In this document: in pieces, positions 45,893 to 52,900 of the stretch | Layout: the number at the start of each line of letters is the position of its first letter | How positions within the stretch are numbered: position 1 is the first letter of the stretch | DNA from: Cloeon dipterum | Lineage: Eukaryota; Arthropoda; Insecta; Ephemeroptera; Baetidae | Reading direction: 5' to 3' | NCBI RefSeq assembly: GCF_949628265.1 | Contig: NC_088786.1 | Span: forward strand, 11,842,001-11,906,000 | DNA: 64,000 nucleotides | The notes under the pieces: generated by a model | What the model saw: the letters and a program-made list of their open reading frames with translations, nothing else | Database searches by the model: none | What the model was told of the DNA's origin: nothing | Program-made: the position numbers and the translations under genes

Positions 45893-48140
45893 ATGGCGAT
45901 GTCCAAAACAACCAACACTTACAACCGGCAGAATTGGGAAGAGTCGGTGAGCATCAGCTTTTAGATTTTTGTCTTATGCATCAACTAATGAGGAAAACTT
46001 ACTAACGCAAACATATTTTGCAGGAGTTTCCAGTTTTATGCCAGACGTGCTTGGGAGACAATCCATATATCCGAATGGTAAAAAATTTACGCTATATAAA
46101 TAGGCACACTGACTTGCAATCAGTACTGTACACGCTAACGGTGTCCTGCTCACTACCACAAAAATGCAATACTAACGACTTTTAACCTTTACAGACCAAA
46201 GAGCGTTTCGGAAAAGAGTGTAAAATTTGCAACAGACCATTCACCGTTTTTCGGTGGTGTCCTGGAGCACGGATGCGTTTCAAGAAGACAGAAATTTGCC
46301 AAACCTGCTGCAGGTTGAAGAACGTATGCCAGACCTGTCTTCTTGACCTTGAGTACGGTCTGCCAATTCAGGTGCGCGACCAGGCGCTTAGGATCAAGGA
46401 TGATCTGCCTAAATCTGATGTAAACAAGGAGTACTACATCCAGAACATTGACGCTGAAGTATGATATTGAAGGTTTTACATCTGAGCAAGTTGACTCAAC
46501 TAAATTTTATTAACAGGTTGCCAAAGGAGGAGATGTGTCTCTTCCTGCAGGCTCAGTGGGCAAGGCGGCTGCGCACAGCGATCTTCTGATGAAGCTGGCT
46601 CGCACTAGTCCTTATTACAAGAGAAATCGTCCACACATCTGTTCGTTCTGGGTCAAGGGAGAGTGTAAGCGTGGCGAGGAGTGTCCCTATCGCCATGAGA
46701 AGCCAACCGATCCAGATGATCCTCTTTCTGACCAGAACATTAAGGACAGGTAATTTTAAGCTCTCATGAGCAGTCACTTATTCAGACACAACTCATTTAT
46801 GTTGTTCAGATATGTAATGTGCAGTCATATTTCCTGTTACAAAGTGTTATTTTTAATTTTATGCTTTGCTTTTTCCCCTGTTAATTGGGAAGATATCTTT
46901 GTGTTACTCTTTTTTGCTTACCACTGTTTAAATTTTCAGATATTATGGTGTTAACGACCCTGTGGCTGAAAAGTTGCTGAAACGGGCTGAGGCTATGCCA
47001 AAACTGGAGCCTCCAGAGGACCGCAGTATCACGACCCTTTATGTGGGAAATTTATCTGAAAAGGTTACGGAAATAGAACTAAGGTAAGGTTTTTAATTTT
47101 CTAGTAAATAGTAAAGACCAGTTGCATTATTATTTGTATCATTTCATTAAGAACTGTAGACCTTTTTAAGAAATTGATTTATTCCGTCACTAGAGCCCCT
47201 CGCAATATTTAACCATTTCTTAAAAAATCTCCATAAAAATGTATTAGTGTAAAATTCCAATTGTTGTAATTTAAATTTTTGGTCTAGCTGTAAGCTCCAT
47301 TATATTGTGTGTTTTCAGGGATAACTTCTATCAATATGGCGAAATCCGCAACGTAACGCTGGTGCCGCGTCAGCAGTGCGCGTTTGTGCAGTACACAACA
47401 CGATCAGCGGCCGAGGTTGCTGCTGAACGCACCTTCAACAAGCTGATCCTGCAGGGCAGACGTGTGACTATCAAGTGGGGCCGCTCGCAAGCGCGCCAGA
47501 CCGGCGTGGGCCGCGATGCTGAGGGCAACTTCAGCGAGCTGGAGCCTGTGCCAGGATTGCCGGGCGCGCTGCCTCTTCCCTCGGACGACATGCATAGCAA
47601 TTACTTCAACCTGCAGCAGCCGTACAGCATCGCTCCCTCTGCCATTCCACCTATGCTGATGCCGCCGCCAATCGCTGCCTCGCCAGCCTCATTTTTCTTC
47701 CCCAGCCAAGTGAGTACTCAGTATTAGCAAATAATTTAACTATTTGAAGAGGCCTATACAGATATTAATATAAATTAGGCCAGAGGTTATTAAATCCAAT
47801 TTTCCTCAACTTTATCAAAACTAGTCAGAATTGGCCTACAAGTTTAAAAGCCAATTCATTTATGTTCCTCCCAGTCACATAACATTATGTTTTGAAAGAT
47901 ACTAACATACAACCTTTTGTGAAATTTTAGGTACGGCCAGTGGGAATGCAGGCACCTCCACCTATTCCAGGCTTTGAAGCTCCTCTGCCGAAGGCTACAC
48001 CCTCAAGTTCGGCCAGCTCACCTGCTGCTCTTAGCTCTGCACCCAAGGTGCACTATCCATCTCAAGATCCAGCTCGACTTGGCGCAACGCAGGGTGTCAA
48101 CAAAGCAAAGTGGAGTGAGATGATGCACGAGCCTGAGTAA
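45893..48140 (+). CDS. RBM22: Pre-mRNA-splicing factor RBM22
   Basis: Spliceosome component of the Prp19-related activated complex that contacts U6 snRNA and the pre-mRNA near the catalytic centre, in the nucleus. Exons 45893-45946, 46024-46077, 46195-46458, 46517-46749, 46940-47083, 47319-47709, 47931-48140 give 449 aa in phase, slightly longer than the human 420. The N-terminus [10 protein letters not shown], the cysteine-rich zinc-binding block (LCQTCLG, CKIC, FRWCPG, CQTC) and [12 protein letters not shown] match the family closely. A CCCH zinc finger spans about 166-184, and an RRM at about 225-305 has RNP2 LYVGNL and RNP1 QQCAFVQY. The Pro/Ala/Ser-rich tail is disordered. Confidence 0.98.
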
Positions 48141-48311: not shown

Positions 48312-48317
48312 TTTATT
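48312..48317 (-). terminator. Poly(A) signal of the POLR3G-like/DPH3 transcript
   Basis: On the minus strand AATAAA begins only 9 nt after the TAA of the POLR3G-like ORF. No AATAAA lies between DPH3 and this ORF, so this is the first canonical signal available to both. Confidence 0.6.
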
Positions 48318-48326
48318 GTAAAAATC

Positions 48327-48982
48327 TTATTCGATTCCCTCGCCATCATCATCATCAGAAGGCGCCCCCATGTCGTCGTCATCATCGACATCATGCATTT
48401 GGTTGTAGTCGTTGCCCTCATCCATTTCCTCGTCACTGTCAGAGGCCTGGGAGTTGTCTGAGTCTTTTGCCTCTTCTTCATCTGAACTGGCCTTTGAGCC
48501 TCCACCCTATAAATATGATTTGATGAGCTAAATTATGTATTTAATAATTACCGCAACCTACCCCTTCAGGGTCACTGTCATCAGCATTTTGGTCTTCTAA
48601 TTGGTTCAGTTCATCAAGACGTTTGGTGACGTCTTTCGCACCACCTTTTCTGCGCGATTTCTTCTTCTTTACAGTGTCAAGCTCTGAAGGATATGACAAA
48701 TACGCGGTAAACTTGCCAGACTCCATCCGGCATCTAATACCCTGCAGAGATAAGAACGGGTGTTACAGTTCAAGTTCTGCTACATATGGAGGAAAATACT
48801 TCTTTCATGGAAAGACCGACGTCCAGCATGTTCCTCACAGTGACTGTGATTTTTTCAGGAGGAATAGTTGGTTGGCGTGGTGGGAAATCTTGTGGAGGAT
48901 GATTAATAGCCAACTCATCTGTCAGCTTGCTAAACTTATCAGTCCTGACACTCAGTCCCTGACCGCGGCCTCGGCTGCCCAT
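48327..48982 (-). CDS. RNA polymerase III subunit RPC7-like (POLR3G/POLR3GL-like)
   Basis: Minus-strand exons 48982-48800, 48741-48562 and 48506-48327 give 180 aa, all phase 0, with short introns (about 55-58 bp). The start MGSRGRGQGLS, a HPPQDFPPRQP block, a basic stretch KKKKSRRKGGAKD followed by VTKRLDELNQLE, and a very acidic Asp/Glu/Ser tail are all features of RPC7/Rpc31-type subunits, which link the RPC3/RPC6 subcomplex to the pol III core. The central region resembles known RPC7 poorly and the protein is shorter than the human 223 aa, so identity is moderate. The ATG lies 10 nt after the DPH3 stop within the same exon in an excellent initiation context (CCACCATGG), so it is probably the second cistron of a DPH3 transcript. 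Confidence 0.55.
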
Positions 48983-48992
48983 GGTGGTGGAT

Positions 48993-49596
48993 TTACTCAG
49001 CAACTTTCACTGGTTTATTCTTCACTACCGTGTTCTCATCTGATTCTAGCTTGAACATGTCCTGCACAGAAAAAGGGAAAGATTTAAAATGCTTGATATT
49101 TAAATTCCTTGAACCTCAAACCTTATCATAAACAATTTTCACGACAAGACTGCAGCTAGGGCAGGTTGCTTCTGTTTGTCCTTGCTGAAGGTCCTCCTGT
49201 AATAATGTAGACGAACCATTAGTAATTTTCTTAATTTTAATACTCCAAGGAAAGTATGTATGTATGTACATTATTAAATTGACCAAAATAAGAAAAGAAA
49301 TAATGAGAAAAAATGAAATTAGTATCACACATTAATAATGGTATTGACTCAATAAGCGTCCAGATTCCAAAAGTGGCCAACCCAGTGCTAAAATCCCGTT
49401 CATGCCAAGTTAAACAAATTTTCTTAAGTGGCCACAAAAAAGTATGATATCAGGACGCTGATTCACACTCATACATACTTATTCTTACTTTTGAGACTTC
49501 AAAGCGATCCCCGCATGGACAAGGATAATGGTAAATCTCCCACTCTTCGTCGTATTCAAAATCTTCAATTTCTATTTCGTCGTAGTAAACACTCAT
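48993..49596 (-). CDS. DPH3: Diphthamide biosynthesis protein 3 (CSL zinc finger)
   Basis: Small iron/zinc-binding protein that donates electrons to DPH1/DPH2 in the first step of diphthamide formation on elongation factor 2, and also supports Elongator-dependent tRNA modification. Minus-strand exons 49596-49489, 49196-49122 and 49061-48993 join in phase 0 to give 83 aa, against 82 in human. The start [18 protein letters not shown] is near-identical to the family, and the four metal-ligand cysteines are present as CPCG and CPSC, with CSL after the second pair and a YDKD motif across the last splice. It lies head to head with GCNA across a 403-bp gap. The last exon also contains the start codon of the POLR3G-like ORF. 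Confidence 0.96.
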
Positions 49597-49999
49597 GTCC
49601 TCTAGAGGTCTTGCATTAAATCGATTTTTCTAGCAGAACAAGGTAATTCACTGACTTGCACCGGCAACAAATTAACTAAATCTCAAAACACACGTGTTTG
49701 TGATTGCTTGCCGATGTTGATGACTCTTGCAATGTGAAGATCAGATTTGTTTACGCCCCCTGAATGGAATCGACCAATGAGATTTAGAATAGTTTCATTT
49801 GGCCTACAAAATTGAGCTCAAATAATAACAGGAGGACCGCGCGAAATTTTAAACGACAGAACCGTCAGGATCAGATCGAGAGACGAACAGAAATCAGAAT
49901 GCTTTTTAGCGAATGATGATTAATTTTGATTCTTAAATCTTTCATTTTGTCTCGTTCGTATACATAGATGTATATGTATGTATTACCTTTTTGACTGCA
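49597..49999. promoter_or_regulatory. Shared divergent promoter region of DPH3 and GCNA
   Basis: Only 403 bp separate the two start codons, so both transcripts must begin here and their core promoters are close or shared. No TATA box is obvious. I see no other feature. Confidence 0.5.
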
Positions 50000-52900
50000 A
50001 TGGAGAAGAAAAATCTTGACGCTATTGCTAATTTGTTTACGCCACCAATATCGCGCAGGAGGCCCAAGAAGAAGAAGAAAAAGGACGGGATTGACGCTGT
50101 GATTGGTATGTATCTCTGACTCTCCCATTGTGTATGGTAAATTATATTAAAATCAACATTTTTTAATTGAGATGCTGGAAGGCTGCTCAGTTTAGGAATG
50201 AACAATCCGCGAGACATAAAAAATCCCCTTTTAACATCAGACGAATCTGATGGGGAAGAGGCAGCAGTGATTCAAAATCTGAACGCCTGGTTGACAGACG
50301 ACGAGAGTGAAACCCAGCCGACAAAACCCAAATCAACAACCACCAGCAAAACGTCAAACACTTACGTGACCTGCCTAACCAGCCAGTGCGTGCCAGAAAA
50401 CTTAATTCACTATGAGCTGTCTGAAGAAGAGGATGACGGTGTGGTAGTCATCAGCAAGGGTGTCATGGACGCAGAAATTACCGAGGATGAGGATGAGGTG
50501 AGCGTGGTACAACAACAGGTGGCGACCACCCCTGACGCGGAGGTCAGCAGCTGCGAAAAGGTACAAGTGTGGCTGCAGAGACTGAATACTTCTGGACATG
50601 CTGTCAGGCACCTTCTCATGGAGCCGCCAGCGCTGGAACAGCCAATCTCTCAGGGCACTTCTACAGGATACCCTCTAACTGAAAGATCACAAAACCGGTA
50701 ATTGTCTAAGCTCCCACTTACTACTTATATTTTTCAATTTATAATTTACCTTTTTATTGACAAATTCAGGATAATTCCATTACATAACGTACACAACAGC
50801 CTTGCTATAAACTAACGTGATTCGTTTTTAACAAAGTATGTAGCTCAAAATATAAAAGGAAATACTTCTTGAATAAAACTGTTCCCCTCACTGAGCAATA
50901 GAGCATAACGCTGTAGTTACCCTTCTTTTTCAGCTATCCTAAATATTGAAATTATTTCCCCTGCAGGCATTTTTGCTATGATCATGACTACCTTTTTGTG
51001 ACTCAATTCGTGGACACTCAACAACAGTCTTGGCACGAACGAAATTTTGGCAGGGGGTGGATTCTAATTGAGTCACCACCATATTTCCGCCTTCTTATTT
51101 GGAATGTCCTCTCATCAAATTCCAGGGATTCTTCCTTCTGCGCAACTTCTCGTTTGAATTCGAGCTCTGATTCCTTACCTACGACAGTTCCTGCGTTTCA
51201 TAGCCAAGCCTCTTCCCGATCTTCTTCCTTCTACTTCAGAGACAGAGTCCCTTGGAGCAAAAGCCAGCCGCCTCCACCAAAACAACAAAAGAAACCCACC
51301 AGTGTAAAGAAACTTTCTAATCGATCTGGCCTTACAATTTGGAGTGATGCCAGGTAAATTTATGGAATATTTAAATTTTAATCCTGGTTTTCCTCAAGCA
51401 AACTTTATTTTTCAATTAAATCAAATATGTATATAAATTATCATATTCTCACGTGCTTGATGCTAGTCACTGGGGCCAGCCCTGAGTAGAATCTGTCATT
51501 ATTAATCTCATTATCGATTTTCAAGCGTCTGCCAAAAATATATTTGTTCTCTGTTCGCAACAGAGGTCTCATGTTGCTTAAAATTGAGTTGAGTATACTT
51601 TTCATTTAAATAATAATTATTAAATAGTCTAATAATAGTTTAATCAGTGAACTATTAAAACTGATTATTCCTCTGCCTTGGGAAATTCTAATTAACATTA
51701 TGTTTGCGTCCATCACAACAAATCAAACAATAGAAAGGAATATATTATTTAATATTATTCAATTGATTTGACAGGTCGACGCAGGAATCGTTTCATTTAC
51801 GCATTGAGACGTCAGAGGAAAACCAGGAAAACTCATTCTCTTCAGTAATACCGATTCAAAGGGCAAGTGAGTCGTCAACTCGACAATCTACAACATCAGG
51901 AAGCGGGTCGGATTCGCTTCCAGAGACTGTGGCCAAGATGTCTGATGTGTACGCATCTTCAGAGCAGTGCAAACCTCTCGTTGATCTGACCAACCACTCG
52001 ACATTCAACCCGGTGCTTTCCTCCACGATGAGAGACTCTGTGTTTAGCTTCCCGAGCGGAGACCTGGAGTACAAAAAGTCGCTTGACCGCACCCTGGCAA
52101 AGACTCCGATTGTGAGAAAACAGAGCAAGGAAAAGAGACCAAGCATGCTTGAGCGGAGGTAAGTATTTTTTGGCTTTTATAAAACACTCTGACCAGGAAA
52201 AACTATCAGGGAGGTGATCTTGATATCATCTGATGAGAATTCCAATGGTGAGAGTTCAGACTGCATCTCAGCGTCCAGTGAGGATGAGCGGGAAAAACGC
52301 ACTATAATCACAAAGACACCATTAAAGACTCGCCTTGTTGACGTTATGACGTCTGATTCTGACTCAGAAGAAGAACCAGTCAAGGTACTATCGCAGGTTG
52401 TGCCAGAAACGGACGACGAGAGTGAAAAGTCAACTCAGTTTGATGAGGAGGGTGCTCATTGCTCAAAAGCATCACCTCAGCAGAAGGTGAAATCTCCCAT
52501 GGCAAGGTGAGTTGAATAAGGGATTAAATTTACAGACTTATATAGATTCAAAGTGATTTTATTGTGGATCAGCAGAGCACTATGCTCCTCACCACCCCAC
52601 ATTCAGAACACAACAGATAAAAATAGAAAACATTTTATTTATTACAGAGGGAAATAAAGAAAATCAGTCAGTCAGTTCAGTATTTGTATATACTCATTCT
52701 TCCACAGGGCAAGAGCTATTTCTGAGTCTGAAGACGATGAAGAGCTGGTTGATCAATGTATGTCACACATTTTCCAATTATTTTCATAACTTTGAAAAAT
52801 AAATTGTAAAAGTTAATCAATAATTTTTTATTTGCCAGTTTTCAAGAAGCAGAAGCAGAAAAAAAACGAAGAAATGACTCCCAGGAAGGACCCTGAGGAA

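Follow-up and report, generated by a model that had tools for sequence, protein, structure and literature searches.

A candidate dicistronic transcription unit carrying DPH3 and a second open reading frame 10 nucleotides downstream in an insect genome

Unless stated otherwise, positions refer to the window (the whole 64-kb stretch of DNA that was analysed) and features lie on its minus strand. DPH3 starts in exon 1 (49489..49596, codons 1-36), with the ATG at 49596-49594 in the context gaggacATGA, and continues through intron 1 (49197..49488; 292 bp, phase 0, GTAAGA...TTACAG, 31% GC), exon 2 (49122..49196, codons 37-61), where the CSL zinc ribbon is completed, and intron 2 (49062..49121; 60 bp, phase 0, GTTTGA...CTGTGCAG). 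The following exon is shared by two reading frames: its DPH3 portion (48993..49061) carries codons 62-83 and the stop codon TAA (48995-48993), the intercistronic spacer ATCCACCACC (48983..48992) measures 10 nt, and the second open reading frame (ORF2) begins at 48982 (ATG 48982-48980, context ACCACCATGG) with codons 1-61 (ORF2 exon 1, 48800..48982). ORF2 is completed by exon 2 (48562..48741, 60 codons) and exon 3 (48327..48506), which encodes an acidic tail and ends with TAA (48329-48327); it thus comprises 180 codons in three exons, and its two introns, both GT-AG, measure 58 and 55 bp. Every intron of the DPH3/ORF2 pair, four in all, is in phase 0. The first-pass annotation had described the DPH3 stop, the 10-nt gap, the ATG in strong context, the location of both in the same exon and the 60-bp intron, and each of these elements was confirmed in the sequence.

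The exon structure was assessed with a codon-usage score, for which six other parts of the window served as the training set: the annotated frame ranked first of the six possible frames in all six exons, with a narrow margin for DPH3 exons 2 and 3. With 180 codons, three splice-consistent exons and coding-like codon usage, ORF2 is hardly a chance product. Stop-codon readthrough was rejected as a means of fusing the two proteins: the frame past the DPH3 TAA stops after 17 codons, and ORF2 lies in a different frame. On the plus strand, a convergent gene (about 45900-48140) encodes STL11 N-terminal and RRM domains and was named RBM22-like by us; by our reading, about 190 bp lie between the stop of its last exon and that of ORF2.

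The 83-residue first product was identified as DPH3 by the Pfam CSL zinc ribbon family PF05207 (E 8e-23; 80.4 bits against a gathering score of 29.2), residues 6-60 aligning to the full length of the profile (positions 1-55 of 55). Its best relatives among solved structures are also DPH3 proteins (2jr7, E 2.8e-29; Kti11 1yop, E 5.8e-20). No second DPH3 copy was found in the genome, where the sole other CSL match (L002) lies beside an apparent J-domain, in what we read as a DNAJC24 (DPH4)-like gene. Similarly, no second genomic copy of ORF2 residues 1-118 was detected, the query covering these residues and leaving out 119-180, and no retrocopies of a spliced dicistronic RNA were seen in the genome. 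Searches by tblastn found no relatives of either DPH3 or ORF2 among viral contigs, and none of ORF2 among prokaryote contigs.

ORF2 had initially been labelled POLR3G-like, a name that the profile searches did not bear out. The Pfam family PF11705 scored 9.2 bits on ORF2 (E 1.6), below the gathering cut-off of 30.2 and similar to several unrelated families, while human POLR3G scored 119.1 bits in the same search. A custom profile was prepared from human POLR3G and POLR3GL and yeast Rpc31, and was used with bias correction off. Against this profile, the result for the N-terminal 118 residues of ORF2 was non-significant (58 of 1000 shuffles scored as high), and the whole of ORF2 scored 36.8 bits, a value reached by none of 1000 sequences that were shuffled N-terminally with the tail kept (best 35.7, a small margin). 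The IERYS(D/K) stretch that is common to the yeast and human proteins is absent from ORF2. Since no exact DNA match to D(I/V)ERYSD was found in the genome either, POLR3G may be divergent or split by an intron in this lineage; the pattern itself is blind to an intron-split or slightly altered motif. Genome searches with PF11705 and with human POLR3G residues 1-160, performed without a positive control, found nothing, and no better POLR3G candidate was found elsewhere in the genome. In searches of solved structures, the N-terminal part of ORF2 matched only ribosomal L22 (E 1.5) and the whole protein had no match at E 0.1. By our reading of the alignment, ORF2 and POLR3G have a similar order of features (GRG start, basic middle and acidic NDY tail in ORF2), and it is possible that ORF2 is a very divergent POLR3G. 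Any functional pairing of a translation factor with a Pol III subunit rests on this unproven name.

Upstream of DPH3, about 400 bp (49597-49999) separate its start codon from the start of a divergent plus-strand ORF (MEKKNLDAIANLF...) near 50000, an arrangement that suggests a bidirectional promoter. The candidate promoter region (49597..49990) has a CpG observed/expected ratio (o/e) of 1.18, and matches to an E2F-like site (49846), CACGTG (49691-49696) and ATCGAT (49620-49625) are present within 49597-49999. A TCAGT initiator-like site was located at 49654; the scan covered 900 nt, a length in which chance alone would give about one such 5-mer. Human DPH3 is described as having a bidirectional promoter in common with OXNAD1 (PMC4742151).

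In the simplest reading, DPH3 and ORF2 are probably carried by one transcript. A single promoter upstream of DPH3 (about 49600-49990) would drive the tight tandem pair, and polyadenylation after ORF2 would yield a dicistronic DPH3-ORF2 mRNA. The placement of both reading frames in one exon supports this model, as does the 10-nt gap, which falls within the stop-to-start range of -34 to 319 nt recorded for Drosophila loci with only polycistronic transcripts (PMC4528330).

The position of the promoter was addressed with the CpG profile. In 150-nt bins, CpG o/e is about 0.9-1.7 over the DPH3 upstream region and exon 1 (50175-49426), and falls to about 0.17-0.6 over 49500-48826 (intron 1, DPH3 exons 2-3 and the start of ORF2), before recovering in the second half of ORF2. 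The DPH3/ORF2 body (48826-49488, 663 nt) falls, for CpG, within the bottom 1.3% of 1267 windows of equal size, and is one of 18 low-CpG blocks in the window, 17 others being present. Within it, the segment 49196-48993 contains 2 CpG against 7.67 expected (131 of 20000 mononucleotide shuffles were as low), and a fraction of 0.023 of 5000 uniform synonymous recodings of its coding part were as CpG-poor. Across the window, TpG+CpA rises as CpG falls (r -0.66), which is the pattern expected if methylation erodes CpG, and cytosine methyltransferase-like sequences are encoded in the genome; the TpG+CpA excess of the body 48826-49488 is modest, 14% of windows being as high. An active promoter immediately upstream of ORF2 would be expected to retain its CpGs, so the CpG-poor sequence upstream of ORF2 favours, as indirect support, a single promoter located before DPH3.

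A promoter of ORF2's own within DPH3 (in intron 1, or between exon 2 and exon 3) would make the working ORF2 mRNA monocistronic and the read-through dicistronic RNA a minor source; this reading is realistic, though judged somewhat unlikely. The first-pass annotation had seen little room for such a promoter, which is correct for the 60-bp intron 2 and overlooks the 292 bp of intron 1. The latter is long beside the 55-60 bp of the other three introns, is AT-rich, has an apparent mild CpG deficit (4 CpG, o/e 0.58) and could be the main remaining place for a hidden ORF2 promoter. A TCATTT initiator-like hexamer occurs at 49316, at chance level. In Drosophila, monocistronic 3' transcripts usually come from a downstream or external promoter (PMC4528330), and the lmg locus has an embryonic 5' end that was mapped 107 nt ahead of its second ORF (PMC3372440). 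Against a promoter inside DPH3 stands the CpG depletion over 49500-48826, which contrasts with the DPH3 upstream region. None of 10 promoter-motif patterns matched inside the DPH3 body, and this absence is given little weight because most of the patterns are rare and several had no match anywhere in 48900-50100. A GTRAG donor-like site occurs just once between 50000 and 48983, at the donor of DPH3 intron 1.

Repeated sequences related to cytosine DNA methyltransferases were observed elsewhere in the genome (G000). A block of at least 3.4 kb occurs with a reported identity of 100% at five places on four large contigs (L024, L032-L036; C1:5727499-5730899, C1:37794808-37798208, C2:34365310-34368710, C3:6665357-6668757 and C5:31828940-31832340). 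It matches PF00145 with 83.1 bits, the match being interrupted by stops that may reflect introns or decay, and has the appearance of an element that was moved or copied recently. Tandem satellites border the L024 copy, their spacings being about 173-579 bp on one flank and 327-338 bp on the opposite flank. Further methyltransferase-like copies were located at C2:35.70-36.91 Mb, C5:1.14-1.21 Mb and C4:6.64 Mb, and several further copies have 69-77% DNA identity to the repeated block. The genome contains at least 35 exon-level PF00145 matches, which seems many for an insect. At their starts (L004, L008), contigs C1 and C5 carry degenerate, AT-rich tandem repeats with a spacing of about 50 bp or multiples of it. 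A genome search for TTAGG arrays, of a type that skips simple repeats, found none.

On a shared transcript, the route of ribosomes to ORF2 would depend on the AUGs that precede it. Six AUGs lie between 49780 and the ORF2 AUG: that of an upstream ORF (uORF) at 49616, the DPH3 start, three out-of-frame AUGs and one in-frame AUG at 49058. The uORF ATGCAAGACCTCTAG (49602..49616; MQDL*) has four codons and a start in weak context (T at -3), and its stop codon is located 5 nt upstream of the DPH3 AUG and 267 nt upstream of the ORF2 AUG. The DPH3 AUG has G at -3 and A at +4, the internal in-frame AUG at 49058 also has G at -3, and the ORF2 AUG, with A at -3 and G at +4, has the best context of all. 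Each of the four AUGs outside the DPH3 frame has a pyrimidine at -3 (chance about 0.06 under equal purines and pyrimidines) and opens a frame of only 4-7 codons. The DPH3 coding sequence itself is not depleted of AUGs, with five seen (including the start) against 6.9 expected and 20% of 20000 synonymous recodings being as low. In flies, in-frame AUGs are reported to attenuate the second ORF of stoned and of snapin (as cited in PMC3372440).

With these features, DPH3 would be produced by the first initiation events, and ORF2, less efficiently, by ribosomes that pass the DPH3 AUG through plain leaky scanning. Alternatively, ribosomes that have translated the four-codon uORF would be too close to the DPH3 AUG to reload and would bypass DPH3. 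By either route, they would skip or briefly use the short frames of the internal AUGs and then initiate at the strong ORF2 AUG. After a short uORF, some distance is generally required for initiator tRNA to be reloaded before reinitiation, the efficiency of which falls with uORF length (PMC5972666, PMC2276209); by these usual rules, ribosomes leaving a stop codon 5 nt from the DPH3 AUG would be poorly placed for DPH3 and better placed further on. The bypass step would be weakened by Drosophila DENR-MCT-1, which promotes distance-independent reinitiation after some short uORFs with strong-context starts (PMC5972666), although the start of this uORF is weak. The joint proposal that the shared transcript is the main source of ORF2, and that scanning or bypass forms at least part of the mechanism, is advanced tentatively, its weight being a little short of even. 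Far more speculative, and quite improbable in our estimate, is a regulatory extension in which the uORF diverts ribosomes past DPH3 and the protein ratio depends on the supply of initiator tRNA (stress), which would couple a factor that serves the modification of elongation factor and tRNA to a divergent Pol III subunit.

The same dicistronic mRNA could also deliver ORF2 through direct termination-reinitiation across the 10-nt gap, or through an internal ribosome entry site (IRES), and these routes together are considered unlikely. Direct reinitiation would profit from the short gap and from the strong context of the next AUG, and long uORFs in Drosophila (conserved peptide uORFs average 92 amino acids) may tolerate downstream translation (PMC2276209). 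It is opposed by the same two constraints as above, the reloading distance that is usually needed and the drop in efficiency with the length of the ORF translated beforehand. Regarding an IRES, the 117 nt around the junction gave no RNA structure signal above shuffles (z 0.44; 131 of 200 shuffles folded at least as well), a result that removes one sign only, as an IRES need not be structured. Given a shared transcript, scanning or bypass would be preferred over direct reinitiation or an IRES.

Two poly(A) signals bear on where the transcript would end. The terminal AATAAA (48312..48317) lies after the ORF2 stop and is followed by T-rich sequence. The statement of the first-pass annotation that no signal lies between DPH3 and ORF2, and that the first AATAAA comes after ORF2, is wrong: an internal AATAAA is present at 49014..49019, in the final DPH3 exon and ahead of its stop codon. 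Poly(A) cleavage usually occurs 10-30 nt downstream of the signal. The T content of the 54 nt downstream is 15% after the internal AATAAA against 41% after the terminal one. Because its downstream sequence is T-poor and cleavage would land around the DPH3 stop codon, the internal signal (49019-49014) is probably weak and little used.

The presence of this internal signal would allow DPH3 mRNAs to end there and ORF2 to be expressed on its own, by a route such as trans-splicing of a spliced leader to the 49062 acceptor, a scheme that is scarcely credible. The acceptor is a good polypyrimidine-AG site, and a polypyrimidine-YAG scan of 49620-48983 returned it, as the intron 2 acceptor, as the only match; cleavage near the DPH3 stop codon, in T-poor surroundings, would leave DPH3 with almost no 3' UTR. 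The genome, in which the few receptor matches found number at least five, contains an Orco-like receptor (L014, by our reading) and is thus that of a winged insect, which counts against the spliced-leader variant; we know of no spliced-leader operons in winged insects. As regards a spliced-leader RNA, an Rfam scan of the 64-kb window matched no family; a tRNA scan of the same window found no tRNA.

Equally improbable is a spliced fusion in which the shared exon (49061-48800) is skipped, so that DPH3 codons 1-61 (the whole zinc ribbon) are joined in frame to ORF2 codons 62-180: the phase 0 of all four introns and a joined 180-residue frame open to the ORF2 stop would permit it, but introns often agree in phase by chance, ORF2 would lose its first 61 residues and no such transcript is known.

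The preferred reading, a dicistronic DPH3-ORF2 mRNA, was compared with known systems. FlyBase lists 159 dicistronic pairs in Drosophila melanogaster, 45 of which seem to yield both proteins only from dicistronic RNA (PMC4528330). As dicistronic mRNAs are already known in insects, the DPH3-ORF2 pair is a candidate addition to an established class. Like the Drosophila loci stoned, Snapin, lemmingA/B and Mocs2, it has two ORFs, a short gap and an apparent single transcription unit, and it shares with them the over-representation of small proteins (lemmingA has 85 residues, DPH3 83 here); the two products of the fly loci are mostly unrelated to each other (PMC4528330, PMC3372440). Unlike in the fly loci, the shared mRNA at DPH3-ORF2 is deduced from DNA. 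A close analogue in layout is lemmingA/B, where the first product has 85 residues and the gap measures 92 bp; translation of its second ORF was not detectable in S2 cells, and a 5' end lies 107 nt before that ORF (PMC3372440). A dicistronic layout is therefore no proof of dicistronic translation.

The leaky-scanning bicistrons of green algae resemble the present pair in their short gap (14 nt in a natural case, 10 nt here) and differ in having few AUGs ahead of the second ORF and a weak first-ORF start context (PMC11892635), whereas DPH3 has five AUGs and its own start has G at -3. The proposed bypass is akin to delayed reinitiation of the GCN4/ATF4 type in that the uORF ends too close to the DPH3 AUG for immediate reinitiation. 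In such systems, a short uORF ending near the next AUG directs ribosomes to one further away; in the present model, the AUG passed over would belong to a conserved protein-coding cistron. MOCS1A-MOCS1B is a bicistronic and fused locus. As in that case, phase-compatible introns would permit spliced fusion of the ORFs at DPH3-ORF2, but no fused DPH3-ORF2 transcript is known. Literature searches, in part judged by titles and the openings of abstracts, yielded neither a DPH3-POLR3G pair nor a report of DPH3 as bicistronic in Drosophila.

If DPH3 and ORF2 are indeed carried by one mRNA, the locus would be a further natural case in which to study the access of animal ribosomes to a long second ORF, and its features are unusually clean to mutate: a uORF stop 5 nt from the first AUG, a single in-frame internal AUG, a 10-nt gap and a strong second AUG. 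Should ORF2 prove to be the Pol III subunit, this transcription unit would co-express two components of the machinery for tRNA and translation.
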